Shown: piece after piece, positions 2,591-53,329 of the stretch | Layout: each line of letters starts with the position of its first letter | Position numbering within the stretch: position 1 is the stretch's first letter | Assembly: GCF_003344865.1 (NCBI RefSeq) | Contig: NZ_CP031165.1 | Coordinates: forward strand, 5,337,910 to 5,401,909 | Length of the DNA: 64,000 nt | Reading direction: 5' to 3' | Origin: Euzebya pacifica | GTDB lineage: Bacteria; Actinomycetota; Nitriliruptoria; Euzebyales; Euzebyaceae | Made by a program: the position numbers and the translations under genes | The notes under the pieces: generated by a model | Told to the model about the DNA's origin: nothing | The model's database searches: none | What the model saw: the letters and a program-made list of their open reading frames with translations, nothing else

Positions 2591-5500
2591 TCAGTCTCGG
2601 CGAGTGGGAATCCAGCAGGCCCAGCCGAAGGCCGGATCGGCGGTCCAGCTCCGCCCACCGAGATCCACCGGCAGGCCGAGCAGCGCCGCCGACACCGTGT
2701 CCGGGCCGATCGACGGCAGCGCCGGCGCGGCGATCTGCTCGTGCGCAGCCTGGGCCTCGAACGCCCCGTCGGTCAGCCGCACGATGTCGATGCCCCGCAG
2801 GGAGTCGGCCACGAAGACCACGTCACCCCGCCACCGCGGTGCGAACGACAGGTTGACCAGCGGCCGGTGGAAGGCCACCTGGATCGGGTCGGTCGGGTCG
2901 GACACGTCGACGAACCGCGTCCCCTGCCCGTACCAGGAGTAGGCGACGATGGAGTCCTTCATGTCGAAGTAGTGGGCGCTGCACAGCGGGATCGGACCGG
3001 GCTCGCCCGCGGCGATCGGGCTCCACGTCCCGACGGTCCGCAGGCGGAACGGCTCCTCGGGGGTGGACACGAAGCCCTCGCCGGCGAAGGACCCCTCGAG
3101 GGTGACGATGTTGAACAGCCCGTCGCTGGTGCAGGCCGACGTGAAGGCCTCGTCCGTGGCGTAGATCAGCTCCCCCTCCGCGAAGCCGCTGGTCTCGAGG
3201 TCGGCGCCGAGGTCGGCCTCGTCGCCGACGGGACGGTAGGAGTTGTGGATGACCCCACCGGAGCTGTCCTCACCCTCCAGCGTGCCGCCGGCGAAGGGCA
3301 CCGGGTCGGCCGGAGTGGCCTGTCGCGTTGCGCCGGTCAGCGGGTCGACGTGCGTGCCGAAGGTGTGGAAGCCGTAGACCCCACCACGGCTGGACACCCA
3401 GGCGAGGCCGTCGGCATCGACCTGCACGTCGTGGGCGTAGTCGGTGACGCCGTCGTTCTGGTTGGTCAGCAGTGGCATGGGGTGGGTGAACGGACGCTCG
3501 GGGTCGGTGATGTCGGTCACGAACACCGGACGGCCGCCCCACTCGTCGGGTTGGTGGGTGCCGGTCGCCGGGCCGCCGGACCACAGGTGGTCGCACACGG
3601 CCATGGACCCGTCGGCGCGCTGGGAACGGACGCAGGTGGCGGTGTGGCCAGCGGGCAGCTCGTGGAAGACGATTCGGCGCAGGGCCGCCGGGTCGGTGGC
3701 GTCGATCAGGTAGACGCCCGCGACACCGTCGTCGGTCGAGCCGCCGTAGGCCCGCGGGTCCCGCGAGAGCATCACGAGCTTGCGCTCGACGTCGACGTCC
3801 ATGTCCTCGTTCTCCCAGAAGTCGGGCATCTCCAGGCTGTCGAGGAACACGGGGGCGGACGGGTCGGTGACGTCGAAGCTCTGGAGGCCGAACCGTCCGG
3901 TGGCGAACAGGACGTCGCGGTCGCCGTAGTCGATGAAGTTGAGGGCGGTGACGTCGTTGAGGCCGTCGATGTGGGCGACGAGCTCGGTGTTGCCCTGGGT
4001 CGCCGGACCGGGGACGAACGGGACGGCCTGCTGAGACTCCCACTCGGCGTACTCGCTGCCGATCACGCTGAAGGGCGTGAAGGTGTTCCCGACGGTGATG
4101 CCGTATCCGACCGGGTCGTCGTCGACCTGCTGCTGGGCCACCCCCACCCCGTCGATGCAGCCGGTGCCGTCGTCGATGGCGGTCACCGGCATGCCGTCGG
4201 CGGTGGTGATGGCGATCCCGTCGGACTCCACCCCACCCATGGACGCGCACAGCCGGTCGTCGTCGAGCGAGACGAAGGCCAGGCCCTCGCCATCGGCCCC
4301 GACCGCAGCGGTGTAGCGGGCGCTGAACTGCACCGCCCCCTCGACGCACACGTCCTCGTCGTCGCCGGTGGCGCAGGCCCGGATCACGGCCAGTCCGGGC
4401 GTGGATGAGGTGAACCGGAGCCGGGCGATCCCGTCGTCGTCGGCCAGGACGGCCGCTTCCATGCCACCGCCACCCAGCGGAAGATCGGCTGGGGCGACGT
4501 CGTCGCTGACGATGGTCGCCATCGCACGGCTGAGCGTGTCCGGCACGATCGTGAACCGGACCTCCGGGCCGCTGGCGACGTCGCCGGAGGCCGGCGCCAG
4601 GGCGCGGCTGCCGCCGTACAGGTCCACGGCGAGCTCGTGGGTCTCGCCCACACGCACCACGGCCTGGGTCGGGAACAGGGACGGGTCGACAGGACACAGC
4701 TCGCTGGAGCCAAGGGCGTCGACGACCGGGGTCACGTCGGCATCGGCCACGACGGCGGTGCCGCCGGCGACGATCACACGAGCCACGCGGCAGCCGATCA
4801 AGCCGCCAACCGCATCCGCGGCGGCGCTGCCGCCGGTCAGCAGCAGTGGCGAACGGAGCGCACCGGCCAAGGGGGCTGCGGCCAGCGCGTCGGGGAAGTC
4901 CGCGCCCGTCGCCAGCACGACATCGGTCGGGGTCCAGCCGACGACGTCACCAGCGTAGCGGGCGACTTCGGCAGCGGTGGCCTGTCGCGAGTCGCCGGCC
5001 AGGCGGCGCACGTCGTAGCCCTCGGACCGGACGGTGTCGAGCACCTCGGGCGACACCACGGCGGTGCCGCCGACGATCAGGACCTGATCGACATCCAGCT
5101 GGGCCAACGCGTCCAGGGTGGCCTGGGGCACCTCGGCGGTGTCGGTCAGGAGGATGGGCAGGCCAGCACCGGCAGCCAGCGGCCCGGCCACGAGGGCGTC
5201 GGCGAAGGTCCCGGCCGCGACCAGGACCGCGGTCGTCTGCTCGTCGATGCGACCGACCTCGCGGCCGGAGGTGGCGATGGCCACGGCGGTGTCGACACGG
5301 CTGTCGCCGGCCAGCCGTTCCACGTCCAGCCCCATCGCCTCGAGCTCGTCGACCACGGCCTGCCCGACGGCACGTTCGCCACCGAGCACCACCGCGTCGG
5401 TCGGCTCGAGCTCCTCGATGGCCTTGACGGTGGCCCGGGGCAACGCATCGGGCCCGGTCAGCAGCACCGGTGCGGCCAGGAAGGCCCCGGCGAGCGCGTC

Positions 5501-15387: not shown

Positions 15388-17337
15388 CTACTCCGCGGTC
15401 AGGCGCTCGAGCGTCTGCTCGAGGGCGACCGCGTCGTCGCCGTAGCGGTCGGCGAAGCTGCGGGTCGAGGAGTCGAAGCCCGACAGCCCACCGAGGATGC
15501 CGGTGACCTCGGTGACCAGGCCGGTCACCGCGTCGGAGGAGTCGATGTCGAGGATGTCGACCAGGTCACCGAGCGAGCCGAGGACGGAGTCGTCGACGAT
15601 GCCGGCCAGCAGGGTCTCCACACCGGTCAGCAGGTCGTTCAGCTGGTCCAGCGGGACGACCCGCGACTGCGAGCCGAGGACGTCGTCGATGGCGTCGAGG
15701 ATGTCCACCAGCGCCGCGGCCTGGACCGGGTCGGAGGTGTCGATCGGCGCGGCGAGGGCCGCGTCGAGGTTCTCGAAGATCGGGATCAGCGCGGCCTGAC
15801 GGGACGTCGAGACGCGGTTGCCCTCCGGACCGATGACGCGCTCGAACGCGGCACGGACCTCGGTCGGCTGGGCGGCCATGGCGCTGGCGAACGCCGCGCT
15901 CGGGTCCTCCGGGCAGTCGGCCTCGCTGTCGTCGGTGTTGCCGTCACCATCGCAGTCGGTGCCGTCCTCGCCCGGGGGCGTCTCCTCGTCACCGTCGACA
16001 CCGATGATGGAGAGGATGGCGCCGAGCAGGCCGGGGGAGGTGCCGTCGGAGCCGGGGATGATGCCCTCCAGCAGGCCGAGCAGCTGGTCGAAGACCGGGC
16101 CGAGGACGTCCTCGAGGACACCGCCGGTCAGCTCGTTGACCTCGTCCAGCAGGCCCAGCATCAGCAGCGCGGCGGTCTCGCAGGCGAGGAAGTCGACGAA
16201 GCTGTTGCAGATCAGCGGGAGGTTGTTGAGGCGCAGGGCGTTGGAGAGGAGGCCGTCACCGAGGTAGGCGATGGTCTCCGGCGGCAGCAGCGGGCCGTCG
16301 GCCAGGATGACCGGGGCCTCGTAGACCGCACCGTGTGCTGCGGCGGCGAACCCGGCCGACCACAGGGGCTCCTCGACGGAGCCGGCCTCGGTCAGGATCA
16401 GGCGCGAGGTGTCGGCGGCGTCGAGGAAGCCCATGAAGCGAGCGATCTCGATGGCGGTGCCGTAGCGGTTCTCACCGGCGACGCGGGTCACGGTGATGCC
16501 CATGTCGGTCAGGGTGTCGGCAACCTCGGGTCCGATGGCGGCCTCGCCACCGACGATGACGACCTCCTCGACACCGGAGTCCTCGAAGTAGGTCTCGGCG
16601 GCGGGGTGCAGGTAGCCGGTGGTGGTCAGGAGGGCCGGGTACTCCATGGAGGAGCCCAGCGGGCCAGCACCGAGGGCGTCGGCGTAGGCCTGGGACTGGT
16701 CGGAGCCCTCTTCGGGGTAGGCCCGCATCAGCAGGGCGGTGTCGGCGTCGGGCGCGACGTGCTCGGCCAGCATGGCGGCGGTCTCGACACGGGAGGGGCC
16801 ACCGACGCGGCTGACGTTGTCCTCGCCGAAGTTGGCGACGAACTTGGACTCCAGGTCGGGGGAGATGGCGTCCTCGGAGCCGAGGAGCAGGATCTCGGTG
16901 GCGCCGAGGCGGGTCAGCTCGTCGGCGATCCGCAGGTCGAGGTCGTCGGTCTGCGTGAGCAGCAGCGGCGCGCCGGCGATGCCCTGGGAGGCGACGGAGG
17001 ACAACGAGTCGGCGAACACGTCGTCACGGCCGATCATGACCAGGTTGGCGCTGTCGAACGTGACGCGCGACAGGGCGATCGAGGCCTCGACCGCGTCGTT
17101 GGCGTCGAGCCGCACCGCGTTGTCGAAGGGCACGTCACCGAGGGCGTCCCCGAGCGGCTCGGTGATCGTCTCGATGACGTCCTCGAGCGGATCGAGGATG
17201 GCGCCGATGACACCCGGGGGCGCGATCGGGAGGTCGTCGAGACCGGGGATCTGGGATTGGGCGGGAAGGGTCATCGCCAGGGCGAGGACCGCGGCGATCA
17301 CGCCGGCGAAGGCGGATCGACGAAGAAGGGCACTCAT
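15388..17337 (-). CDS. Secreted CWB2 protein with acidic, helical C-terminal region
   Basis: The ATG at 17337 gives a 649-residue protein with a signal peptide (about 1-29) and an AAAGGTGAT ribosome-binding site 7 bases upstream. A second in-frame ATG at 17346 is too close to that site. Three CWB2-like repeats fill residues 60-400 (RVGGPSRVETA, RVAGENRYGTA; VIVGGEAAI), the first and third being weak. A cysteine pair follows. The next stretch (DCDGDGNTDDSEADC) resembles a calcium-binding thrombospondin type 3 loop. A helical region of about 150 residues, rich in LLxxLD patterns, ends the chain and is not recognised. The M42-like peptidase gene lies upstream on the same strand. Confidence 0.75.
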   Translation of the reverse strand: MSALLRRSAFAGVIAAVLALAMTLPAQSQIPGLDDLPIAPPGVIGAILDPLEDVIETITEPLGDALGDVPFDNAVRLDANDAVEASIALSRVTFDSANLVMIGRDDVFADSLSSVASQGIAGAPLLLTQTDDLDLRIADELTRLGATEILLLGSEDAISPDLESKFVANFGEDNVSRVGGPSRVETAAMLAEHVAPDADTALLMRAYPEEGSDQSQAYADALGAGPLGSSMEYPALLTTTGYLHPAAETYFEDSGVEEVVIVGGEAAIGPEVADTLTDMGITVTRVAGENRYGTAIEIARFMGFLDAADTSRLILTEAGSVEEPLWSAGFAAAAHGAVYEAPVILADGPLLPPETIAYLGDGLLSNALRLNNLPLICNSFVDFLACETAALLMLGLLDEVNELTGGVLEDVLGPVFDQLLGLLEGIIPGSDGTSPGLLGAILSIIGVDGDEETPPGEDGTDCDGDGNTDDSEADCPEDPSAAFASAMAAQPTEVRAAFERVIGPEGNRVSTSRQAALIPIFENLDAALAAPIDTSDPVQAAALVDILDAIDDVLGSQSRVVPLDQLNDLLTGVETLLAGIVDDSVLGSLGDLVDILDIDSSDAVTGLVTEVTGILGGLSGFDSSTRSFADRYGDDAVALEQTLERLTAE

Positions 17338-26909: not shown

Positions 26910-28960
26910 GGGACGGCGTAGGGGGCCACGGCAGCCTCGTCGGCCAGCAGTCGGTTGGCCGGGACCAGGCTGCCGTTGACGGCATCCAGGTCGAACACGT
27001 GCCACCAGGTGTGTTCGGCCGTACCGTTCAACGGGACGGCCATCTCCGCCACCAGTCCGGCGCTGTCGAAGACCTGCACGACGGCGTTGGACTGCGACAG
27101 CGTCTCGCCCCCGGAGAACCGGTGGACGGCGTAGCGGTAGGTACCGGCGACTGCTTGGCTGATGGTGACGGTCTCGGGGCCGAAGCCGCTGACGTCGTCG
27201 ATGTCCAGGGCCGCGAACGGGCAGGCGTCCAGCGACCCGCGTGGGCCGTAGTAGACGTGGTAGGGCTGGGACTCCGGCGTCCACAGGTGTGAGTCCAGGT
27301 CGGCCGGGTTGTCGTCCCACGACAGCACGATCCGCAGGCTGCCCGCTGCCAGCTCGGGGGACAGCAGCAGCGTCGTCGCGGTGTCCTGCGCCGGTTCCAC
27401 GCTGACCGTCGTCGGCGCGCCCGGCACGTAGCCGTCTGCGGTGGCGGTGACGGTGTAGCTGCCACCGGGCAGGTCGGTGAACGCGTACTCACCGGCGGGG
27501 CCCGTGGTGGTCGTCGCCCCCGAGGACAAGGCCACCGTCGCCCCGACCACCGGTTCGTCGGTCGTGGCCGAGCGCACCGTCCCGCTCATCGTGCCGCCCG
27601 GATAGGTGGCGGTCGTGGTCTGGGTCGACCCGTTGGACAGCGGCACGCCGACGACCAGGGTGCAGGGCTCCGGCAGCGAGGCCGACGTCGTGACGGTGAA
27701 GGTCCCCTGCTCCAGCGGTGCGGATGCTGGCTGGTCCAGGCAGGTCCCGTCGAGGGTCACCTCGGCGGTCTGGGCGAACGCCGTCGACCCACCCTCGACG
27801 GTCACCGTCACCTCCTGACCGGGGGTCAACGTCGTCGCGCTGGCCGGGACGAACAGGACGTTCGCCGAGGCAGGCAGGCCGAGGTCGACGCGTGCCGTCT
27901 CGCAAGCGGCGATCGGGGTGACGCAGGTCAGGACGGGGTCGTCGGTGGCCGCCGTGGGGACGGCGAACCCGCCGGTGTTGGCAGCCAGGAAGGTGCTGGT
28001 CGGGGCGGGCAGGGCGTCTCCGGAGGCGAGGACGATCGGTGCGTCGAAGTGGGCGGAGTGCGCTGCTGCGGCGAACCCGCCGGCCCACGCATCGGCGCCC
28101 TGTCCCTCCACGAGGGTCACCCGCTCGACGTCGTCGGCCCCCTGGGCGCCGAGCTGGTCGGCCACGGCGACGGCCGTGTCGAAACGGGTGGGGCCGGAGA
28201 TCCGCTCGGTGGCCATGCCCATGCCACGGACCTCGTCCTCGACCGCCTGCGAGATGGCTGCGGTCCCGCCGACGATGAGCACCTCGTCGATGGTGGAGGA
28301 TGCCAGGTAGTCACGGGTCGAGGCCGGCAACGCGTCGGTCGAGGTCAGCAGGACCGGCGCCTCCAGCTCGGCGGCCATGCCGCCCGCGGCCAGCGCGTCG
28401 GCGAAGGCCTGGGACTGGTCGGCGCCGGAGGACGGGAACGCCCGTGCCAGGACGGCGGTGGTCGCCTGCGGGGCGTCGATGGCGGCGATGGTCGTGGCCG
28501 TCTCGATGCGGGTGGTGCCGGCACGACGCTCGACGGTGTAGGTGCCGGCCAGCTGCTGCTCGACGATCTCACCGATGGCGGAGGTGCCGCCCAGCAGGAT
28601 GACCCGGTCCGCCCCGAGGCGCTGCAGCTCGGCGACCACGCGGTCGGGCACCGGGCCCTGCGGCGGCACGAGCAGTAGCGGACTGCGGCTCTGCAGGACC
28701 CCGGACGCCAAGGAGTCGGCGAACACGTCGCTGCGGCCCATGACGACGGTGGTGGTGTCGGGCAGGGGTGTCGCTTCCGACAGCCGAACCGCAAGCTCGA
28801 CGTTGGAGGGGGTCTCCTCGGACTTGACGACCAGCAGGGCATCGCTGGTCGTCGTGGACTGGGCGCGGCTGGCGGGTGCCGTCGACACGAGCGCGGCGAG
28901 GACGCCGAGCAGGGTCAGCAGGGCCACCAGCGGCAGCAGCGCAGGAACTCGAGATGCCAT
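26897..28960 (-). CDS. Secreted CWB2 protein with carboxypeptidase-regulatory-like and DUF2135-like domains
   Basis: This 687-residue protein has a signal peptide (residues 6-34). CWB2 repeats lie at about 45-350 (RRAGTTRIETA, RISGPTRFDTA; VILLGGTSAI, VLIVGGTAAI). An Ig-like stretch with cysteines follows. Next comes a carboxypeptidase-regulatory-like beta-sandwich at about 475-555 (GTVRSATTDEPVVGATVAL, GEYAFTDLPGGSYTVTATA). A C-terminal domain begins LRIVLSWDDNPADLDSHLW, like the DUF2135-type secreted domains. No catalytic residues are apparent, so a binding or structural surface role is more likely than an enzymatic one. Confidence 0.8.
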   Translation of the reverse strand: MASRVPALLPLVALLTLLGVLAALVSTAPASRAQSTTTSDALLVVKSEETPSNVELAVRLSEATPLPDTTTVVMGRSDVFADSLASGVLQSRSPLLLVPPQGPVPDRVVAELQRLGADRVILLGGTSAIGEIVEQQLAGTYTVERRAGTTRIETATTIAAIDAPQATTAVLARAFPSSGADQSQAFADALAAGGMAAELEAPVLLTSTDALPASTRDYLASSTIDEVLIVGGTAAISQAVEDEVRGMGMATERISGPTRFDTAVAVADQLGAQGADDVERVTLVEGQGADAWAGGFAAAAHSAHFDAPIVLASGDALPAPTSTFLAANTGGFAVPTAATDDPVLTCVTPIAACETARVDLGLPASANVLFVPASATTLTPGQEVTVTVEGGSTAFAQTAEVTLDGTCLDQPASAPLEQGTFTVTTSASLPEPCTLVVGVPLSNGSTQTTTATYPGGTMSGTVRSATTDEPVVGATVALSSGATTTTGPAGEYAFTDLPGGSYTVTATADGYVPGAPTTVSVEPAQDTATTLLLSPELAAGSLRIVLSWDDNPADLDSHLWTPESQPYHVYYGPRGSLDACPFAALDIDDVSGFGPETVTISQAVAGTYRYAVHRFSGGETLSQSNAVVQVFDSAGLVAEMAVPLNGTAEHTWWHVFDLDAVNGSLVPANRLLADEAAVAPYAVPNAC

Positions 28961-31698: not shown

Positions 31699-33188
31699 CC
31701 GGCCACGTCGAGGCGGCGGACATCCGCCGTCGATTCCTCCTCCTGCGGGCCACCCGCTGGCTGCCGACCGGGCTGCTCATTCCCGTCTTCGTCCTCGTCA
31801 TGCTGGACCGCGGACTGACGCTGGGACAGATCGGCCTCGTCACAGCCGGTCAGGGCATCGCGATCATGGCCCTGGAGCTGCCGACCGGCGGGTTGGCCGA
31901 CACGCTCGGGCGGCGGCGGGTGCTGCTGATCGCCGGCGCGGTCGAGCTGCTGGCCGTTGGCCTGTTCATCGTGGCCGACACCGTGCCGTTGCTGCTCGGC
32001 GTGTGGGTCCTGCAGGGCGTCTACCGGGCGTTGGAGTCCGGGCCGCTTGACGCGTGGTTCGTGGACCGCTCCCAGGCGCTCGACCCCGACGCCGACCTCG
32101 AACGCGGCCTGTCCACCGCCGGGGTTGTCCTCGGTCTGGCGATCGCGGGCGGTGCGGTCCTGTCGTCAGTGCTCGTCGCCGCCGCGCCGTTCCCCGGACT
32201 CGATCCCCTGCTCGGCCCGGTGGTGGCCGCACTCCTCCTGCGCGGTCTCGACCTGGTCGCCATCCTGCGGCTGATGGACGAGCCCGAACGGGCCGGCCAC
32301 CTGTTCGACCTGCGCGCGGCCGTCCGAGACGTGCCACGGGTGATCCGGACCGCCGCCATCGACGTCCGGGCGTCGGTCGCCCTCCGGGCGTTGTTCGCGG
32401 TCGAGCTGCTGTGGGGGTGCGGCATGATCGCCTTCGAGGTGTTCACCCCGGCGCGCCTGGAGCAGGTGTTGGGCGACACCGACGCGGCAGCGGTCTACTT
32501 GGGTCCATCCAACGCGGTCGGGTGGGCCGCGGCGGCGGGAGGCGCGGCGTTGGTGCCGCTCCTGACCCGGCGTCTGCGGCCTCGCCACGCTGGCCCGATG
32601 TTGCTGGGCCTGCTGGCTGGCGGCGTGGTCGTGATCGGAACGGCGGGGACGGCGGCGTTGATCGTCGTTGGCTTCGTGGCGACCATGGCCATGCACGGCG
32701 CGGCCAACCCCGTGCACCAGGGCCTGCTGCACCGCGCGATCACCGCGCCCGAGAACCGCGCGACCCTGGTCAGCGTCAACTCCTTGACGGCCAGCTTGGG
32801 GGGCACCATCGGCGGAATCGGCCTGGGTGTCCTGGCCGACGCCACCACCCTCACCGTCGCGGGTCTGGCCGGCGCCGCGGTCATCGCCGCCGCCGGCCCC
32901 CTCTACCTCCTCACCCGGCCCGTTCAGGCGGCCCACCCCTCCCCTCCCTTGTCGCCACACCCGCCTTGTTGTCAACCGGTGGGTGCAACAAGTTGGGCGA
33001 GTTGGGCGGCTGGGGTCTTCCAGCCGAGGGTTTGTCGGGGGCGGGTGTTGAGGCTCTCGGCGAAGTCGTTGAGGTCCGCTGGGGTGTGGACTGACAGGTC
33101 GGTGCCCTTGGGCATGTACTGGCGCAGCAACCCGTTGGTGTTCTCGTTGGAACCGCGTTGCCAGGGCGAGTGGGGGTCGCAGAAGTAG
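31695..33188 (+). CDS. MFS transporter whose 3' end is overrun by an IS30 element
   Basis: The GTG at 31695 overlaps the ArsR-type gene. Residues 1 to about 415 form a 12-helix major facilitator with the loop motif GGLADTLGRRRVLL after helix 2 (the family's GxxxDxxGRR signature), consistent with a drug or metabolite exporter. After helix 12 (AAAGPLYLLTRPVQAA) the frame stays open through the 50-nt repeat remnant and into the antisense strand of the transposase. The predicted protein of 497 residues therefore gains about 75 residues from the IS30 element. The native stop is not present. Transport function could survive because the membrane core is complete. Confidence 0.8.
   Translation: MTGHVEAADIRRRFLLLRATRWLPTGLLIPVFVLVMLDRGLTLGQIGLVTAGQGIAIMALELPTGGLADTLGRRRVLLIAGAVELLAVGLFIVADTVPLLLGVWVLQGVYRALESGPLDAWFVDRSQALDPDADLERGLSTAGVVLGLAIAGGAVLSSVLVAAAPFPGLDPLLGPVVAALLLRGLDLVAILRLMDEPERAGHLFDLRAAVRDVPRVIRTAAIDVRASVALRALFAVELLWGCGMIAFEVFTPARLEQVLGDTDAAAVYLGPSNAVGWAAAAGGAALVPLLTRRLRPRHAGPMLLGLLAGGVVVIGTAGTAALIVVGFVATMAMHGAANPVHQGLLHRAITAPENRATLVSVNSLTASLGGTIGGIGLGVLADATTLTVAGLAGAAVIAAAGPLYLLTRPVQAAHPSPPLSPHPPCCQPVGATSWASWAAGVFQPRVCRGRVLRLSAKSLRSAGVWTDRSVPLGMYWRSNPLVFSLEPRCQGEWGSQK
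32951..32963 (+). repeat. Partial 50-nt repeat unit left of the IS30 element
   Basis: GTCGCCACACCCG matches the start of the 50-nt units elsewhere in the window (for example GTCGCCTCAGCCG at 34245). It is cut off by the left end of the insertion sequence, suggesting the element landed inside the array. Confidence 0.5.
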
Positions 33189-34192
33189 ACGGGCACGTCG
33201 GTGTCGATGGTGAACTGGACGTGCTCGGCCATCTCGATGCCCTGGTCCCAGGTGATGGACCGCCGCAGGTGCTCGGGCAGCCCGGTGATCGCGGTGGTCA
33301 TGGCATCGCGCACCGTCGCGGCGGTCCGGTCGCCATCGAGGTGCATCAGCATCACGTAGCGCGTGGAGCGCTCCACAAGGGTGCCCACCGCGGACTTGCC
33401 GTCCTTGCCGATGATCAGGTCGCCCTCCCAGTGACCGGGCACGGCACGGTCCTCCACCTCCGCGGGCCGCTCGCTGATCATCACCATGTCGTGCATGCGT
33501 GGCCGGGGAGACCGACCGGAGGGGACCCGCTTGGCCCGACCGGTCCGCAGGCACGACGTCAGCTCGCGTCGCAGCTCGCCCCGCCCCTGGACGTACAGCG
33601 ACTTGTAGATCGTCTCGTGTGACACCGTCATCGACTCATCGTCGCCGAACCGCTCCTTGAGATCTGCCGCGATCTGCTGGGGCGACCACAGTCTGCGCAG
33701 GCCGTGCTCGACGAGGCCGGCCAGCTCCGCGCAGCTGGCGAGCTTGGTCGGCTTGGCCCGCCGTGCCTGCTCGTGGGCACGCTTGTGGGCAAGCATCGGC
33801 CGGTAGGCCTCACGGCCACCGTTGCGGTCCACCTCGCGCCACACCGAGGACTTGTGCCGGCCGACCCGATCGGCGATGGCCTGATAGGTCTCGCCCCGAC
33901 CGATCCCCAACCGGATCTCCACCCGATCATCAAGCGACAACCGGTGCGGTGAGGGATCAGTCGCAAGCTCTGCCCGCAACACCCCACCGAACGGCTTGAG
34001 CACGTTGAGGAAGCTGCCCACGGAGATGTCGACCTCCTCAAGGATCTGCCGGCGGCCCTGACCGGCTCGTGCCCGACGGATCACCTCCGCCCGCACCTCA
34101 TCAGGCAACCGCAGCCACCGCTTCTCACCCTTGGCCCTCGACATCACCATGACCTACCGCCTCCACCTCGAAGTGTCGTGTTGCAACGAAGT
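32964..34192 (-). mobile_element. IS30-family insertion sequence
   Basis: The element of about 1.23 kb contains one transposase gene. Candidate terminal inverted repeats are imperfect: CTTGTTGTCAAC at the left end (about 32965) and CTTCGTTGCAAC read inward from the right end (about 34192). The left end overlaps the transposase stop. It is inserted between a partial 50-nt repeat unit (32951-32963) and the rest of that array. Exact ends and target duplication could not be fixed by eye. Confidence 0.72.
32972..34150 (-). CDS. IS30-family transposase
   Basis: This 392-residue protein has helix-turn-helix segments at the N-terminus (RRQILEEVDISVGSFLNV, LDDRVEIRLGIGRGETYQAIADRVGRHKSSVWREV). The DDE catalytic core has D in GHWEGDLIIG, D in TWDQGIEMAEH and E in NENTNGLLRQY. 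The C-terminal RPRQTLGWKTPA is typical of the family. It is intact, with no frameshift, so the element may still be active. It is transcribed against the MFS gene. Confidence 0.95.
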   Translation of the reverse strand: MVMSRAKGEKRWLRLPDEVRAEVIRRARAGQGRRQILEEVDISVGSFLNVLKPFGGVLRAELATDPSPHRLSLDDRVEIRLGIGRGETYQAIADRVGRHKSSVWREVDRNGGREAYRPMLAHKRAHEQARRAKPTKLASCAELAGLVEHGLRRLWSPQQIAADLKERFGDDESMTVSHETIYKSLYVQGRGELRRELTSCLRTGRAKRVPSGRSPRPRMHDMVMISERPAEVEDRAVPGHWEGDLIIGKDGKSAVGTLVERSTRYVMLMHLDGDRTAATVRDAMTTAITGLPEHLRRSITWDQGIEMAEHVQFTIDTDVPVYFCDPHSPWQRGSNENTNGLLRQYMPKGTDLSVHTPADLNDFAESLNTRPRQTLGWKTPAAQLAQLVAPTG

Positions 34193-34393: not shown

Positions 34394-36409
34394 CTAGGAG
34401 CCGACGACGCCGCCGCCGGTCTTCCAGATCGAGATCATGGCCGGGCGGGCGCCGCGGCCGGGATCGGGGAACTGGCTGATGGGTGCGGCCAGCGTGCCGC
34501 CGTCACCGGGGTGCTGGACCGCGCAGAACAGGGTCTGGCCGTCGGGGGTGAACTCCGGACCGCAGGCCTCGGCACCGACCGGCACCGACAGGAACTGCTG
34601 CACGTGGCCGCGCTCGGACCCGGTCAACGGCACCCAGTGGAAGGCGTCGTTGAGCTCCAGCCCACCGGGCTGGCCGTCGGTGGCCACCAGCAGGTCCCCG
34701 GAGGGCGTGAACGCCAGGTTGTCGGGGGCCGAGATCGGCGAGACCTGGGACTTGTCGTACCCACCGAAGAAGGTCGAGTCGTCCTCGGGGTCACCGCAGA
34801 GCAGCAGGAAGTCCCAGCTGAAGGTGGTCGCACCGACGTCGTTGCCGGCCTCGACCAGCTCGATGACGTGGCCCCACTGGTTGTCCAGCCGCGGGTTGGC
34901 GGCGTTGACGCCGACTTCCTCGGTGCGACGGGTGTTGTTGGTGCAGGCCACGTAGACGTACCCGGGACGGTTCGGGTCCGGCTGGACGTCCTCGGGACGG
35001 TCCATCGGGGTTGCCCCGACGGTGTCGCCGGCAGCGCGTGCGCGGATCAGCACGTCGCCCTGGTCGGCGAACCCGTTCTCGGCGGTCAGGCCGTTCTGGC
35101 CGTGCACGAGCGGGATCCACTGACCGGTCTGGTCGTCGCTGAACGTCGCGACGTACAGCGTGCCGTCGTCCAGCAGCGCCATGTTCTCCTCCAACGTGTT
35201 GTCGGGGGAGTAGGTGCCGTTGGACACGTACTTGTAGAGGTAGTCGAACCGCTCGTCGTCACCGAGGTAGGCGACCAGGCGGCCGTCGGGGGCGACGGTG
35301 GTCTCGGCACCCTCGTGCTTGAAGCGCCCCAGCGCCGTGTGCTTGCGCGGCACGAAGTCGGGGTCGTAGGGGTCGATCTCGACGATCCACCCGTGGCGGT
35401 AGGGCTCGTTGGGCTCCTTGGACAGGTCGAAGCGGTCGACGAACCGCTCCCACTTGCGACCCGACGCCTCGTAGGCCACGCCGTAGCGGTCGTGGTCGAC
35501 ACGCACGGGGTCGTCCTCGGCCGGCGCCGCGGCACCGTCGGGCAGGCCGAAGTACTGGTTGAAGTTCTCCTCGGCGGTCAGGATCGTGCCCCACGGGGTC
35601 TTGCCACCCGCGCAGTTGTTGAACGTGCCCATGACCTCGGTGCCCGACGGGTCGGTGCTGGTCCGGAGCTTGGCGTGGCCAGCGGCCGGGCCGGTCATGG
35701 TCATCGGCGTGGTGCCGGTGATGCGCCGGTTCAGCGCACCGCCGCGGCGGTAGTACATGGCCCCGCCCTCCCGGTAGACCTCGACGACCGAGGCGCCGTG
35801 GGCGGCGATCTCGATGTTGACCTGGACCTCGGTGGGGTTGTCCGGGTCGTAGGAGGCGAACATCAGCTCGCCCTGGGTGTACTCGTGGTTGACCACCAGC
35901 AGGCCCTCGTCGGACTCGGTCCCACCCCGCGTGGCCGGCACGAAGGCGACGAAGTCGTTGTTGTAGCCGAACGCGCCCTCCTGCTGCTCCACGGTCAGGT
36001 TGGAGTAGTCGGTGGTGAGGCCGGGGGTGCCCTTGATGATGGGGTCACCCCAGCGCAGGAAGGTGTTCCAGCTGTAGCCCTCGGGCACGACGACGCTGTC
36101 GGCGCTGGACGCCGAGATCGGCGTGAAGCCGATCTGCGTGCCGTCCTGCGCCATGGCAACGCGTTCGGTGGCGAGGCCGTCGAGGCTGGCGGTGGCCAGG
36201 ACCATGCCGGCGAGGGCACCGCCCTTGAGGATGTTGCGCCGCGAGATCATGCGGGCAGCGACCGCACCGAAGTCGTCGACCGCCGCGGCGCGGGGGTTGG
36301 ACGGCGCCGTGTGGCATTCGTCGTTGCACTTGCTGGTGCACTTGCTGAAGGTGCCGGAGTGCCAGCTGCCGAAGAGGGGCAGGGCCTGGCGGCGGGTGGA
36401 GTGCGTCAT
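34394..36409 (-). CDS. phoX: PhoX-family alkaline phosphatase, Tat-exported
   Basis: This 671-residue protein belongs to the PhoX (DUF839) family of secreted calcium/iron phosphatases that release phosphate from organic esters. A twin-arginine signal, SRRNILKGGALAG, begins at residue 56, preceded by an unusual leader with CTSKCNDEC. Family motifs include EGLLVVNHEYTQ-like (DEGLLVVNHEYTQGEL), GTFNNCAGGKTPWGTILTAEENFNQYF, GRFKHEGAET and DRPEDVQPDPNRPGYVYVACTNN. The gene follows the phytase-like CWB2 gene by 55 bases on the same strand and likely shares its PHO-box promoter. The GGAGA upstream of the ATG is a ribosome-binding site. Confidence 0.9.
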   Translation of the reverse strand: MTHSTRRQALPLFGSWHSGTFSKCTSKCNDECHTAPSNPRAAAVDDFGAVAARMISRRNILKGGALAGMVLATASLDGLATERVAMAQDGTQIGFTPISASSADSVVVPEGYSWNTFLRWGDPIIKGTPGLTTDYSNLTVEQQEGAFGYNNDFVAFVPATRGGTESDEGLLVVNHEYTQGELMFASYDPDNPTEVQVNIEIAAHGASVVEVYREGGAMYYRRGGALNRRITGTTPMTMTGPAAGHAKLRTSTDPSGTEVMGTFNNCAGGKTPWGTILTAEENFNQYFGLPDGAAAPAEDDPVRVDHDRYGVAYEASGRKWERFVDRFDLSKEPNEPYRHGWIVEIDPYDPDFVPRKHTALGRFKHEGAETTVAPDGRLVAYLGDDERFDYLYKYVSNGTYSPDNTLEENMALLDDGTLYVATFSDDQTGQWIPLVHGQNGLTAENGFADQGDVLIRARAAGDTVGATPMDRPEDVQPDPNRPGYVYVACTNNTRRTEEVGVNAANPRLDNQWGHVIELVEAGNDVGATTFSWDFLLLCGDPEDDSTFFGGYDKSQVSPISAPDNLAFTPSGDLLVATDGQPGGLELNDAFHWVPLTGSERGHVQQFLSVPVGAEACGPEFTPDGQTLFCAVQHPGDGGTLAAPISQFPDPGRGARPAMISIWKTGGGVVGS

Positions 36410-36464
36410 GGCGTAGCTCGTGTCTCCTGGATGGTGGGGGTGTGCGTGCGTGGCAGGTGGCAGG

Positions 36465-39400
36465 TCAGCCCTGGCCGAAGACGGTGTCCTCGGTGCCCAG
36501 GTCCATGAAGAGGGTCTGGCCGATGGCGTCGTCGAGGCCGTCGTTGTCGGTGGCGATCCACACGTGGCCGTTGCCGGTGATGCCGAGGCCCTCGAGCTTG
36601 TCGGGGGTCACGATCGAGGCGTCCTCGAGCTCGTCCAGCAGGTCCAGCGCCGGGGTGACGGGGACCGCCTGCAGCGGCTGGCCGTACGCCACGAAGGTCG
36701 CGGCGGCCAGGTCGACGGTGGTGACTCGCTTGATGGCCGCGAAGCCACCCAGCTGGTTGTCCCGCTCGACGATGGCGAAGGTGCCGTCGGACAGGGCGGT
36801 GATCTCCGACAGTCCGACCCAGCCACCGTTGGCGGACTCGGGCTCGGCCTTCTCGTAGGTCGCGAACGCCCAGGTGCCGTCGGTCGGGTCGAGGCGGGCG
36901 ATCTTCACGGTGTTGTCCTCGTCGTCGGCCCACTCGCGCTGGACGACGGCGTAGACGTACTCCGTGGAGCCGGACTCGTCGGTGCCGATGGCGACGCCCT
37001 CGAACCCGCTGGAGGTGGCCTGTTCGACGAGGGCGGCAGGCAGGTCGTACTCGGCCTGGACCGCACCGGTGGCGTCGGTCAGCACGAGGGCGTTGGGTCG
37101 CTCCTCGCCGTCGTCGGTGTAGCGACCCTCCGACGCCAGCCAGAAGCCGCCCTCGGGTGCGATCGCGATGCCCTCGAGGTCGAGGTTGAACGAGGCACCC
37201 GTCACCGGGATGCGCCCGGTGATCAGGCCGGCGTCACCGGAGGCGTCGATCGGGTAGATGTAGCCGACCCCCAGGATGGAGTCGCTGACGCCGTGGAGCA
37301 TGTCGCCCTCGGCGGATCCGGCGAGGCCGGACATGGCCGTCCAGGGCGTGGGGACCCCGTCCACCTCGGTGCTGGTCAGCATCGGGTAGGTGGGCGCGGA
37401 CGCCCCGTGGGTGTAGATGGTGACGATGGAGGTGGGCAGGCCGACCTCTTCTTCTTCTGCCGCCAGGTTGGTCTCGGCGGCGACGACGAACAGGCCCTCG
37501 TCGGGGATGGCCTTGAGGCCCTCGGGGCCGATGCCGGTGGGGAGCGTCTGCAGGGGCGTGACGGCACCTGCGTCGTCCAGGGTGTAGACCCCGACGGCGT
37601 TGGCCCGCTCGGCACCGATGAAGACGTGGGTGGTGTCGTCGTAGGTCCCGGTCTCCGCACCCTCGGGCTCGACGCCCTTGTTGGCGGAACGGGCCTCGGG
37701 GTAGTGGCCGGCGGCGATCAGCTGGTGCTCGAGGCTGTTGCCGGCCTCGTACTCCACGGTGCCGTCGATGTTGAAGATCGTCCAACTGCGGCTGCCGCCC
37801 TCGACGCCGTCGGCGTCGGCGTAGTCGCCCTCGTTGGCCGAGGCGAAGGAGTCGTCGTCGATCCAGCTGACGGCGTCGGCCTCACGACGACGCGTGATGG
37901 TCTCGGTCGGCTGCAGGTCGCCGCTCTCCTGTGGTCCGATCGCCTCTTCCGTGGCGTCGACGTCCTCGAGGGTGACCTCACCCATGGAGAAGTCCTCGGT
38001 CACCGTGCCGGTGGGCAGGTCGACGATGGCGAAGTGGTTGTTCTCCTGCATGGAGACCGCAGCCACGTTGTCGTCGTTGATGTCGACGTACTCGACCTCG
38101 GGGTCGCTGGGGGCGACGTCGGCCAGGCCGGTCAGGTCGACGTCGGTGGCCGTCCAGGCGGTCGGGTCGTCGTCGCTGGTGTCGACGACGACGAGCTTGC
38201 CGCCGGGGGCCTGCGGGATCAGGCCGTCGTTGGCGTCCTCGTCGCGCTCGTTCTCGATGGCGATCGCGGCGTACGTGCCGTCGGGGGAGATCGCGACCGA
38301 GTCGGGCTGGCCGCCCAGGTCGATGGTGGCGACGGTGGTGGCGTCGGTCAGGTCGATGACCCGCAGCTCACCGGAGGGGTTGACGAAGTCGGGGCTGGTG
38401 TTGACCCCGACGAGGGCCAGGTCGCCGAGGATCGCCACGCTGGTCGGCTCGCCGCCCAGGTCGATCGTGCCGCCGCCGGTGGGGGCCGCAGGGGTGGCGA
38501 TGTCGATCATGCCCAGCGACTCGTTGGGCGAGTCGGTGAAGACCAGCATGTCGCCGCCGGCCCAGTAGTCGATGATCTCTGCGGAGACGTTGCCGTTGGC
38601 GGTCACGTCGTAGGTGGCGGTGTGGGTGAAGTAGCGGCGCCCCTCGCCACCGGCGGCGGCGCAGGCGATGTCGGAGACGTTCGGGCCACAGACGACGCCG
38701 GCGGCGGGGTTGGCGTCCAGCCAGGCCCGCGTGGCCTCGGGGACCATGTCGCCGTTGACGAGCAGGACGACGGTGTCCCCGTCGGCTGCCGCGCCGGCTG
38801 CGGCGAACCCGCTGGCCCAGCCGAACTCGTCGAAGCCGTCGACGAGGACGACGGTCGTGACGTCGGTGCCGGGAGCGTTCGCGAGGTACCCGGCGATGGC
38901 CGAAGCGGTGGTGGTCCGCTCCGGGCCCTCGAGGCGGGTGACGGCGACACCCAGGCCGCGCAGGTCGGCGACGGTCGCGTCGCTGATCGCGGCGGTCCCG
39001 CCCAGCACGAGGATCGTGTCGATCGGGCTGGCCTCGATGGCGGCCTTGGTCGAGTCCGACAGCATGCCGGTCTCGGTCAGCAACACCGGGTGACCCAGGG
39101 CCGAGGCCAGCGCGCCACCGGCGATGGAGTCGGCGAACTGTGCGGTGGGGTTGCCCTCCACCCCGAAGGCACGGGCAAGCACCGCCGTGGTGGCGCTGGC
39201 GCCGAGCTCGGCGTAGGTGTCCAGCGCCGTCTCGAGGCGGGTCGCGCCCTCGTAGCGGACGACGGTCAGGCCCTGCGCGGTCAACGCGTCCTCGACGGCC
39301 TGCGACACCGCGTCGACGCCACCGAAGACGTGCACGGTGGTCGCGCCGAGGCGGTCGATCTCCGACTCGGTGGCCGCGTCGAGCGATCCGGTTGCGGTCA

Positions 39401-39653
39401 GCAGCAGCGGACCGTCGATGACGCCCTGGGCGAAGCCGGAGGACAACGCGTCAGCGGACTCGTCGTCTCGGGCCAGCGCGACGTCGGTGGCACCGTCGGG
39501 GTAGGCGTACTGGCTCAGGGCGATGGCATCGGCGACGGGGGAGCCACCGTCGAGGTCGGCAACGCCCTGCGCGGTGGCCACTGCGCTCGGCAGCAACGAC
39601 AGCCCCAGCGCAGCGATCGCGAGGATCGCGAGGATTCGGAGTCGGATTGGCAT
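36465..39653 (-). CDS. Secreted CWB2 protein with phytase-like beta-propeller
   Basis: The ATG at 39653 (GTG at 39662 is in frame but too near the AGAAGG site) gives 1,062 residues. A signal peptide covers about 1-30, with cleavage near ATA-QG. CWB2 repeats lie at 35-330 (RYEGATRLETA, RLEGPERTTTA; ILVLGGTAAI). The remaining 700 residues form WD40/YVTN-like blades (VRVIDLTDATTVATIDLG-type) and an esterase-like-activity-of-phytase domain (SFNLDLEGIAIAPEGGFWLASE, SSGFEGVAIGTDESG, GNGHVWIATDNDG). The acidic loops suggest calcium binding. Together with PhoX and the upstream PHO-box-like repeats this points to phosphate release from organic phosphate at the wall. Activity on phytate itself is unproven. 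Confidence 0.85.
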   Translation of the reverse strand: MPIRLRILAILAIAALGLSLLPSAVATAQGVADLDGGSPVADAIALSQYAYPDGATDVALARDDESADALSSGFAQGVIDGPLLLTATGSLDAATESEIDRLGATTVHVFGGVDAVSQAVEDALTAQGLTVVRYEGATRLETALDTYAELGASATTAVLARAFGVEGNPTAQFADSIAGGALASALGHPVLLTETGMLSDSTKAAIEASPIDTILVLGGTAAISDATVADLRGLGVAVTRLEGPERTTTASAIAGYLANAPGTDVTTVVLVDGFDEFGWASGFAAAGAAADGDTVVLLVNGDMVPEATRAWLDANPAAGVVCGPNVSDIACAAAGGEGRRYFTHTATYDVTANGNVSAEIIDYWAGGDMLVFTDSPNESLGMIDIATPAAPTGGGTIDLGGEPTSVAILGDLALVGVNTSPDFVNPSGELRVIDLTDATTVATIDLGGQPDSVAISPDGTYAAIAIENERDEDANDGLIPQAPGGKLVVVDTSDDDPTAWTATDVDLTGLADVAPSDPEVEYVDINDDNVAAVSMQENNHFAIVDLPTGTVTEDFSMGEVTLEDVDATEEAIGPQESGDLQPTETITRRREADAVSWIDDDSFASANEGDYADADGVEGGSRSWTIFNIDGTVEYEAGNSLEHQLIAAGHYPEARSANKGVEPEGAETGTYDDTTHVFIGAERANAVGVYTLDDAGAVTPLQTLPTGIGPEGLKAIPDEGLFVVAAETNLAAEEEEVGLPTSIVTIYTHGASAPTYPMLTSTEVDGVPTPWTAMSGLAGSAEGDMLHGVSDSILGVGYIYPIDASGDAGLITGRIPVTGASFNLDLEGIAIAPEGGFWLASEGRYTDDGEERPNALVLTDATGAVQAEYDLPAALVEQATSSGFEGVAIGTDESGSTEYVYAVVQREWADDEDNTVKIARLDPTDGTWAFATYEKAEPESANGGWVGLSEITALSDGTFAIVERDNQLGGFAAIKRVTTVDLAAATFVAYGQPLQAVPVTPALDLLDELEDASIVTPDKLEGLGITGNGHVWIATDNDGLDDAIGQTLFMDLGTEDTVFGQG

Positions 39654-39733
39654 CTTGTGCACGGCCTTCTGATCGGGGTTCTGACGACATGGGGGCAGGC
39701 ACGCCTGCCCGCGGTCCCCGGTTCATAGCCCGT

Positions 39734-39787
39734 GCGATGAGAACGCTGGATAGCGGTGGATGAACGCGCGCCGATCAGTGGGTGAAC
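39734..39787 (-). promoter_or_regulatory. PHO-box-like direct repeats upstream of the phytase-phoX operon
   Basis: On the minus strand three GTTC-headed repeats read GTTCACCCACT (39777-39787), GTTCATCCACC (39755-39765) and GTTCTCATCGC (39734-39744). They are spaced 22 and 21 bases apart, about two helical turns each. Streptomyces PhoP sites use GTTCACC-type repeats with 11-base steps, so this looks like a PHO box with degenerate intervening units. A TATGAA (39722-39727) lies downstream as a possible -10 box. Confidence 0.6.
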
Positions 39788-39802: not shown

Positions 39803-40555
39803 TCACGCCAGGAAGTCGGCGAAGATGATCAGGTTGTGGTCGTAGCTGCCGTCGACGAGGTCGCCGTGGCAGGTGATCAACCGCAGCTCGGGACGGTTGG
39901 TCGGCCCGTAGACCGCCTCGGTCGGGAACCGTTCCTTGCTGGGCGCCATCGAGCTGCGAACCGCGAAGACGGCCGAGGTGCCGTCGGCCCGGTCGATGAT
40001 GATCCGGTCCCCGCGGTCGACCCGACCGAGGTCGAAGAACACCGCCGGCCCCTCGAAGGAGTCGACGTGGCCGACCACGACCGCGGCGCCGCGCTCCCCG
40101 GGTTCGGCCCCACCCTGCCACCAGCCGGTGGTGGCGAAGTCGGTGGGGACCTCGAGGGCACCGGCCTCGTCCACCCCGAGCGCCACGACCTGCGCATCGA
40201 CCCCGATGGCGGGGATGCGGATCCCCACGGGGTCGGCCACCTGCCCGTCGTTGATCGGCGGCCCCCAGTCGGGCGCCGGCCGCGGCATGGGGACGTCGTC
40301 CGCCGCTGGGCCGACGGCCGGGCCCCGGCCGGCCAGCCCGAGTCCGTCCAGAAGGGGCAGGGGTGGGGCCTCGACGCGGGCGATGTCGGGTGAGGTGACC
40401 GCGCCACCCGGTCCGGCCGCGCGTGGTGGTTCGGCACCGTGCACGCCGGCGGCCACGCTCATCGCACCGGCCAGCAGCAACGCGGCCGCACCCAGGAGCC
40501 GGATGCGACCGGGTCGGGTCGGGACGGGGCCCGCCGTGTCGGCCACGGCGGCCAC
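39803..40555 (-). CDS. Class F-like sortase with altered active site
   Basis: This 250-residue protein has an N-terminal membrane anchor (residues 18-40), a proline-rich linker, and a sortase domain from about residue 108 (GIRIPAIGVDAQVVALGV). The catalytic histidine is in VVGHVDS and the cysteine in RLITCHGD. In class F sortases the arginine follows in a YRDN-type motif, but here the equivalent reads SYDHNLIIFA, with no arginine. The enzyme may therefore be impaired or use another residue. No LPXTG-type substrate was found among the secreted proteins of this window. The start codon is GTG with GGAGGAG upstream. Confidence 0.8.
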   Translation of the reverse strand: MAAVADTAGPVPTRPGRIRLLGAAALLLAGAMSVAAGVHGAEPPRAAGPGGAVTSPDIARVEAPPLPLLDGLGLAGRGPAVGPAADDVPMPRPAPDWGPPINDGQVADPVGIRIPAIGVDAQVVALGVDEAGALEVPTDFATTGWWQGGAEPGERGAAVVVGHVDSFEGPAVFFDLGRVDRGDRIIIDRADGTSAVFAVRSSMAPSKERFPTEAVYGPTNRPELRLITCHGDLVDGSYDHNLIIFADFLA

Positions 40556-51523: not shown

Positions 51524-53329
51524 TCAGCACCCGGGGTCGAGCCGTTCGGCCAACGACGACCGCAGACCCTCGGTGAACGCGGCATCACCGACGACCGCCA
51601 CCTGACTGGCGCAGCCCGGGAGGGCCGCAGCGGTATCGGCGGGCAGGGTGTCCTGACCGGCCATCAGGACCGCCCAGCCCCGGTCGGCAGCCAGGCCGGC
51701 ACCGGCGAGCCCGCTTGCCCACCCGTCCTCGGCGAACCCGTCGATCAACACCACCCCGGTGCCTGCGACGAGCTGCTGGGCGATCGCCACCGCGGTACCC
51801 GTGCGGCTGCTGCCGGCGACCCTGTCGGGGGCGGGCAGGGAGGCCATCACCGCGTCGCTGACGGCGGCGGTCCCGCCCACCACGACGGTCATCGCGATGC
51901 GGAGCTCCTGAAGGGCCGCATCCACCTCGGGCGACAGCGATGTCGAGTCGGTCAGGAGGACCGGCGAGGCCGTGTCGGCCGTCCACGCCCCAACAGCCAC
52001 CGAGTCCGCCCACGCCGCGGTCTGGTCCGCCCCGCCGCTGCCCGCACGGGCAACCACAGCCTCCGTCGAACCCACCGAACCCGTGACGACCCGGGCCACT
52101 TCCACGGCCGTGTGGACACGGGTGGGGCCTGCGAGGCGTCGTGGGGTGAAGCCGAGCGCAGTGACCGCTGACTCCACAGCGCCTGACAACGCCGCCTCGC
52201 CGCCCAGGAGGAACACGGTGCCACCTGCCGGCACGACACGTTGGAGCTCGCCCGCGACGGCGTCATCCAGCGAGCCCGACGGGGTGAGCAGCATCGGACC
52301 CGTACCGGTCAGGGCCGTGCCTGCCAGCGCGTCGGGGAACCGTTCGGCGCTGGCCAGCACCGCATGGGCTGCCGCCGCCGGGAGGAAGCGCTCGGTGCTG
52401 ATACGGACGGAAAGGGACGTGGGGTCCTCGGCCACCACCTCCATGGCAACCGCTGCCGGCGGTTCGGTCGGCTGGGTCGGTTCGTTGCCGATGCCGAAGG
52501 TCCAGGTCAGCGGTGCCCCGTCCACCTCCACGGTGGCCCGGTAGCGGCCGGCGGGCAGGGGATGGCGGGGGAGGATCGACACGGTGTTGCGCAGGATGGC
52601 GCCATCCCCGACCGCCCGGCAGTGCTCGACACCTGCGCCGGTGTCGGTGTTGACCAGGGCAGTCGCACCGATGGTGGACGTCGGCTCGAACGGGTTGTCC
52701 AGCATGGCCAGCACGGGGAACCCGACGGGGGCCACGTACCCGTCACAGTGAGCCCAGGACTCGTCGTAGCTCGGCCCATCGGATGGCGGGAGCTCGACCG
52801 TCGAACCCTCCCCGGGGAAGACGTAGGGGTAGCGGGGCGCGGGCGGTTGGTCCTCGCCGTCCTGCTGGATGGTCCACAGGCCGGCGACGACATCCCCGGC
52901 GTTGGAGGTCTGCTCGGTGAACGTCGCCTGGGCGAATCCGGTCAGCGCGACATCGGGATTGAGCACGTTGACGAGGTGCCCGGGGTCGGTCATCCAGCCA
53001 TCGACCATCGCTGTGGGGGTGGTGCCCGCCAGCTCGTGGGTCAGGTTGGAGCTCCTCGCGGCACGCTGCGCCGCGGGTCCCGCATCGTCGGGGAGCTCGT
53101 GCCCCACCTGACCCGTGCCAGCCATGTAGTTCACGGCCTCCTGCAGCGCCGCGCTGCGTCCGGGGTCCTCCACCAGCGGGTGCAGGCCCGACCCGACTCG
53201 AAGCTCGTTGACCCTCGCCAACCAGTCCGGCTCCTGGTTCCGTTCCGCCGGACCGGCTGCACCGGTCGTGGTCCCTCCCAATACCAGCAGCAGCGCCAGA
53301 ACGGCCACCATGGCTCGACGAGCGGTCAT
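51524..53329 (-). CDS. Secreted CAP-domain protein with CWB2 repeats
   Basis: This 601-residue protein has a signal peptide (about 1-25). An SCP/CAP-like domain covers about residues 30-165 (WLARVNELRVGSGLHPLVED, VGHELPDDAG, TPTAMVDGWMTDPGHLVNVL). A beta-rich region with cysteines follows. Three CWB2 repeats lie at about 320-601 (RLAGPTRVHTA, RVAGSSRTGTA; VFLLGGEAAL, VVVGGTAAVS). CAP proteins are secreted and bind lipids or small molecules or have pathogenesis-type roles; no activity can be assigned. GGGAGG precedes ATG 53329, and a TTTACA/TATCCT promoter lies upstream. Confidence 0.83.
   Translation of the reverse strand: MTARRAMVAVLALLLVLGGTTTGAAGPAERNQEPDWLARVNELRVGSGLHPLVEDPGRSAALQEAVNYMAGTGQVGHELPDDAGPAAQRAARSSNLTHELAGTTPTAMVDGWMTDPGHLVNVLNPDVALTGFAQATFTEQTSNAGDVVAGLWTIQQDGEDQPPAPRYPYVFPGEGSTVELPPSDGPSYDESWAHCDGYVAPVGFPVLAMLDNPFEPTSTIGATALVNTDTGAGVEHCRAVGDGAILRNTVSILPRHPLPAGRYRATVEVDGAPLTWTFGIGNEPTQPTEPPAAVAMEVVAEDPTSLSVRISTERFLPAAAAHAVLASAERFPDALAGTALTGTGPMLLTPSGSLDDAVAGELQRVVPAGGTVFLLGGEAALSGAVESAVTALGFTPRRLAGPTRVHTAVEVARVVTGSVGSTEAVVARAGSGGADQTAAWADSVAVGAWTADTASPVLLTDSTSLSPEVDAALQELRIAMTVVVGGTAAVSDAVMASLPAPDRVAGSSRTGTAVAIAQQLVAGTGVVLIDGFAEDGWASGLAGAGLAADRGWAVLMAGQDTLPADTAAALPGCASQVAVVGDAAFTEGLRSSLAERLDPGC

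Follow-up and report, generated by a model that had tools for sequence, protein, structure and literature searches.

A putative phosphate-starvation operon of Euzebya pacifica encoding a CWB2-anchored double-propeller protein and an exported PhoX

Introduction

The PHO box of Streptomyces has the core GTTCACC (PMC4415409), and in the same genus phoU is attached to phoR-phoP (PMC7866108). Cyanobacterial and diatom proteins annotated with the Phytase-like family PF13449 have been reported to be induced by phosphate starvation. In Nodularia the protein nsp7010, described as an 'atypical alkaline phosphatase (esterase-like activity of phytase family protein)', rose by 5.5 log2 units under P limitation (PMC9846622), and in the diatom Phaeodactylum the secreted phytase-like protein PtPhos2/HASP1 rose by 7.4 log2 units under phosphate starvation (PMC7283521). 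Both are linked to the protein studied here by domain annotation and may not be its orthologues. A connection of the family to atypical alkaline phosphatases comes from the annotation in PMC9846622; as the S. elongatus control genome has no PF13449, equating this family with the original PhoA of Synechococcus PCC 7942 is uncertain.

Here we analysed a stretch of 64,000 nucleotides from the genome of Euzebya pacifica (the window), in which a first-pass annotation, made from the letters alone, had put forward a surface phosphate-scavenging operon. As a hypothesis of regulation and localisation this proposal is supported, since the gene pair is conserved and PhoX has kept its key residues (see below), and we consider it likely from the sequence that the two genes form a phosphate-starvation operon, encoding a CWB2-tethered propeller protein and an exported PhoX.

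Results

The first gene lies on the minus strand at 36465..39653 and, by Pfam and NCBIfam, encodes a CWB2-anchored double-propeller protein that is 1062 amino acids long when counted from the ATG and has a Sec-type signal sequence (leader MPIRLRILAILAIAALGLS, read by eye). The gene coordinates of the first-pass annotation were retained except for the start codon, which is likely the ATG at 39653 rather than the GTG at 39662, since the GTG is missing from the sister species, where the ATG is present. The CWB2 region (38649..39506, limits approximate) holds two significant repeats and a degenerate third seen by eye (PF04122, E=8e-21; CW_binding_2 74.9 bits against a cut-off of 24.9), and has PDB matches to C. 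difficile Cwp6 and to S-layer chains. It is followed by a first, choice-of-anchor-I-like beta-propeller (37400..38639), recognised from a partial NF038117 match, from the structure model and from PF22494 in homologues. The NF038117 match is below the family cut-off (113 bits against 300), and PF22494 itself gave no match in this protein at E 0.001, though it is present in most distant homologues. The second propeller (36540..37349) belongs to the Phytase-like family PF13449 (E=6e-46; 158 bits against a cut-off of 27.6), with invariant acidic motifs and a propeller fold, so that the proposed joining of a CWB2 anchor to a phytase-like propeller is borne out. No Pfam match to the true beta-propeller phytases or to the histidine-acid phytases was found at E 0.001.

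The double propeller and, separately, its second half were modelled with AlphaFold, with a mean pLDDT of 78. Residues 1-413 of the model form a propeller that resembles YncE and WD40 seven-bladed propellers, and the second half gave generic propeller matches; the WD40, YncE, NHL, glutaminyl-cyclase and GH43 propellers that were found are all generic. There was no PhoX or phytase chain among the fold matches listed, where a similarity is still possible, and a sequence search of a copy of the PDB with the Phytase-like profile found no close relative. The modelled propeller fold does not identify an activity. It is conceivable, if somewhat doubtful, that the CWB2 protein is not an enzyme and that its propellers bind substrate, metal or polymer at the surface while PhoX hydrolyses: propellers can bind many kinds of partner, the top structural matches are either unrelated enzymes or not enzymes at all, and the activity of PF13449 rests on annotation. 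Against this reading, acidic motifs (DLEG, SEG, GLSE, ERD, KLEG, TDNDG and others) are invariant in both propellers and recur across phyla, and proteins annotated with PF13449 are induced by starvation (PMC9846622, PMC7283521).

The gene phoX (34394..36409, minus strand) starts 55 bases after the stop of the propeller gene on the same strand, as had been noted, and encodes a PhoX alkaline phosphatase of 671 amino acids with predicted Tat-type export. The PhoX match (PF05787, E=2e-164; 549 bits) covers the full length of the profile (2-515 of 515), and the protein aligns with P. fluorescens PhoX (3zwu) over about 580 residues. In this alignment the equivalents of Cys179, Glu273, Asp292, Arg385 and Glu387 are conserved, and the motifs NNC, FKHE, GDDE and MDRPE were located. 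These residues were reportedly assigned by Yong et al. 2014 as Fe/Ca ligands and the phosphate-binding arginine. The twin-arginine N-terminus ISRRNILKGG is followed by a hydrophobic stretch, and scores 21.1 with the Pfam TAT model, below its cut-off of 22.7. Before the Tat motif there is a cysteine-rich N-terminal extension, LPLFGSWHSGTFSKCTSKCNDECH (36248-36409), which is conserved and also found in a more distant species of the genus (G003).

Two neighbouring genes were also recorded. Just downstream of phoX, at 32972-34150, lies an IS30-family transposase that is absent from the same place in the sister species (G001), and is therefore taken as an insertion after the split from that species. 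Directly upstream of the gene pair, a class F sortase (39803-40555) is also found in G001 and was not seen at this position in G003.

Three GTTC-headed repeats had been reported upstream of the gene pair, and we located their starts on the minus strand at 39787, 39765 and 39744, thus 22 and 21 bases apart, all between the end of the sortase gene (39803) and the ATG. They were scored with a matrix of an 11-base unit learned from tandem pairs upstream of pstS in 61 genomes of the class, from which the Euzebya pacifica genome had been left out. The learned unit is GTTCACCTGCC, and its conserved core GTTCACC is that of Streptomyces. Half-site 1, GTTCACCCACT (39777..39787), scores 7.7 bits, and half-site 2, GTTCATCCACC (39755..39765), 22 bases further on, scores 8.0 bits. 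Together they reach 15.8 bits, which upholds the PHO-box-like reading by an independent matrix. The third, weaker repeat, GTTCTCATCGC (39734..39744), was found by reading 21 bases after half-site 2, and a possible -10 element, TATGAA (39722..39727), was seen by eye only; all four elements are on the minus strand. Scans for a sigma-70 consensus promoter and for a terminator gave no match.

The site did not show the canonical adjacent 11-base direct repeats on matrix scoring. At 11-base spacing the best pair in this promoter reaches just 7.0 bits against 15.8 at 22, and the unit between the two good half-sites is degenerate (GATCGGCGCGC, -3.7 bits), so the box is atypical and not a textbook tandem. 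When both strands were searched, about 155 kb of this genome contained a single case of three GTTC repeats at 21-22 spacing, the window site, and 3 Mb of simulated sequence also contained one. The pattern GTTCAYCYAC-N12-GTTCAYCYAC without mismatch was found at the window site only in the 6.37-Mb genome, and a triple 11-base GTTCA pattern gave five loose sites.

The genome's own PhoP motif was looked for elsewhere and found. PHO boxes precede pstS (20.2 bits), an Na/Pi symporter gene that is followed by a PhoU-like gene (18.6 bits) and a paralogue of phoX, the second PhoX gene (17.7 bits). Another lies in the phoU/phoP intergenic region (L045:9058-9090; 19.9 bits), with half-sites 22 bases apart. 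The regulon was sampled from stretches of the genome, and the enrichment of sites at phosphate genes is not unbiased, because several of these stretches were picked for pattern matches or phosphate genes. A further strong site among ribosomal protein genes (L101) is probably due to chance. In addition, a PHO-box tandem was observed 36 bases before a gene for a Tat-type TIGR03767 metallophosphoesterase (L103:1501-3018; G000 C1:5699174), which has no assigned function and is a candidate new member of the Pho regulon; this tandem is among the strongest in the sampled stretches. The 22-base half-site spacing, seen at the phoU/phoP region, recurs upstream of a homologue in L157, which suggests an alternative operator spacing.

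At about C1:4.425-4.428 Mb, divergent from phoU, the genome encodes a PAS-domain kinase that is PhoR/PnpS-like, together with a response regulator. Both score below the curated PhoB/PhoR cut-offs, and thus their PhoR/PhoP-like assignment rests on gene context. It is rather unlikely that the repeats bind another regulator (AfsR-, GlnR- or MtrA-like) and that the operon does not respond mainly to phosphate starvation. The 22-base spacing is non-canonical, the motif scoring covered the pstS-derived matrix, and AfsR and GlnR of Streptomyces compete with PhoP at overlapping sites (PMC4415409); however, this matrix, learned from pstS only, has its best matches in the sampled stretches at phosphate genes, and the products of the operon belong to phosphatase families.

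Three species of the genus (G000, G001 and G003) have retained the gene pair. Protein identity is 88-92% in the sister species G001 and 51-65% in G003, with 88-89% and 51-62%, respectively, for the CWB2-propeller orthologue; the propeller part had no match in G002 or G004. In the G001 promoter both strong half-sites (half-site 1 is identical) and the DNA between them are unchanged, other positions vary, and the third repeat, GTTCTCCTCGG, reaches 9.8 bits. The G003 promoter reaches just 6.2 bits, a score that 8% of windows in that locus equal or exceed.

Some match to the propeller part was found in 32 of the 396 genomes of the phylum, and a substantial match outside the genus in seven (G319, G256, G129, G107, G266, G356 and G191). 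No CWB2 was found in the homologues examined outside the genus, and no PhoX in the surrounding stretches of about 14-15 kb (5 kb for one). Other anchors were seen instead: a lipobox in G129, G107 and G356, an LPXTG-like LASTG tail in G266 and Ig-like repeats in G256. G319 and the proteobacterial homologues had no obvious anchor. Upstream PHO-box-like scores were 20.1 bits in G266 (at 22-base spacing) and 16.4 in G129, borderline in G256 (14.7) and G356 (14.3) and weak in G107 (10.1), and no such site was found upstream of the G319 homologue. The better of these sites are each in about the top 1% of windows in their own locus, and taken singly are modest evidence. That the window site is a chance match, with the operon constitutive or otherwise regulated, is very unlikely: G003 is weak, and scanning many genes yields some chance matches (146 loose tandem matches genome-wide), but a pair scoring this high is expected at about 9e-4 per 150-base region (simulated; one strand, either spacing), the strong half-sites are unchanged in G001 despite the variation around them, and box-like sites stand before distant homologues.

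The pairing had been called unusual. For the anchor this did not stand, as about 150 proteins of this genome carry CWB2 (164 matches to a CWB2-bearing query; 471 candidate CWB2 stretches), which makes CWB2 the default surface anchor of the lineage. What is distinctive is the combination: among the homologues examined, CWB2, the propeller core and an adjacent phoX are found together only in this genus. The CWB2 expansion is extreme for a 6.4-Mb genome, with further examples in the window at about 5042-5317, 16255-17115, 27962-28822 and 51611-52423, and three relatives of the same genus gave 137-149 matches to the same query.

Discussion

In the phosphate-starvation operon that we favour, scarce phosphate would lead a PhoR/PhoP-type system to bind the 22-base-spaced GTTCAYCCAC half-sites and activate both genes, which may be co-transcribed; the activation is suggested by the motif and its conservation. 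The first product would be Sec-exported and held non-covalently on wall polymers by its CWB2 repeats, where the two propellers probably hydrolyse organic phosphate at the surface, judging from their family and from the starvation induction of domain-bearing proteins. The second product would be PhoX, exported through the Tat pathway, in which the residues for metal and phosphate binding are conserved. The freed phosphate would enter the cell through PstSCAB and Na/Pi symport, the genes of which have the same boxes.

A further-reaching scheme, which we regard as speculative and improbable, is a surface system of two steps: the tethered enzyme would act first, on phytate or phosphodiesters caught close to the wall, and PhoX would then hydrolyse the monoesters. 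In this scheme PhoP would also use a skipped-turn operator of 22-base-spaced half-sites, as at phoU/phoP and upstream of a homologue from a different actinobacterial family.

Phytase-like double propellers are widespread, regulation by phosphate has been reported for them in several groups, and the copy of the PDB that was searched holds no close relative; the gene pair, with its known phosphatase partner, is a tractable place to settle their function. Across actinobacterial lineages, one surface phosphatase-like core appears to be retained with one anchor exchanged for another (CWB2, lipobox, LPXTG-like). The PHO-box matrix used here is class-wide and can also serve for actinobacteria that have been little studied.

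Compared with known systems, the PhoX of the window resembles P. fluorescens PhoX (PF05787, 3zwu) in its full-length match, predicted Tat-type export and Fe/Ca-site and phosphate-binding residues, and differs in its cysteine-rich N-terminal extension and in adjoining a Phytase-like gene. The propeller protein shares the exported two-propeller core of choice-of-anchor I / esterase-like phytase proteins (PF22494 and PF13449), whereas its anchor is CWB2 and the others are lipoproteins, carry an LPXTG-like tail or have no recognised anchor. With C. difficile Cwp6 and SlpA it has in common the use of CWB2 repeats as anchor, but the cargo is different. The promoter is like the Streptomyces PhoP PHO box, with its GTTCACC 11-base direct repeats, in half-site sequence, in the genome's own motif and in having phoU divergent from phoP-phoR, and unlike it in the distance from one good half-site to the next, which is 22 rather than 11 bases and takes in a degenerate unit. 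Each of these elements is known, the combination alone is lineage-specific, and the locus is a new anchor form of a known surface-phosphatase theme.
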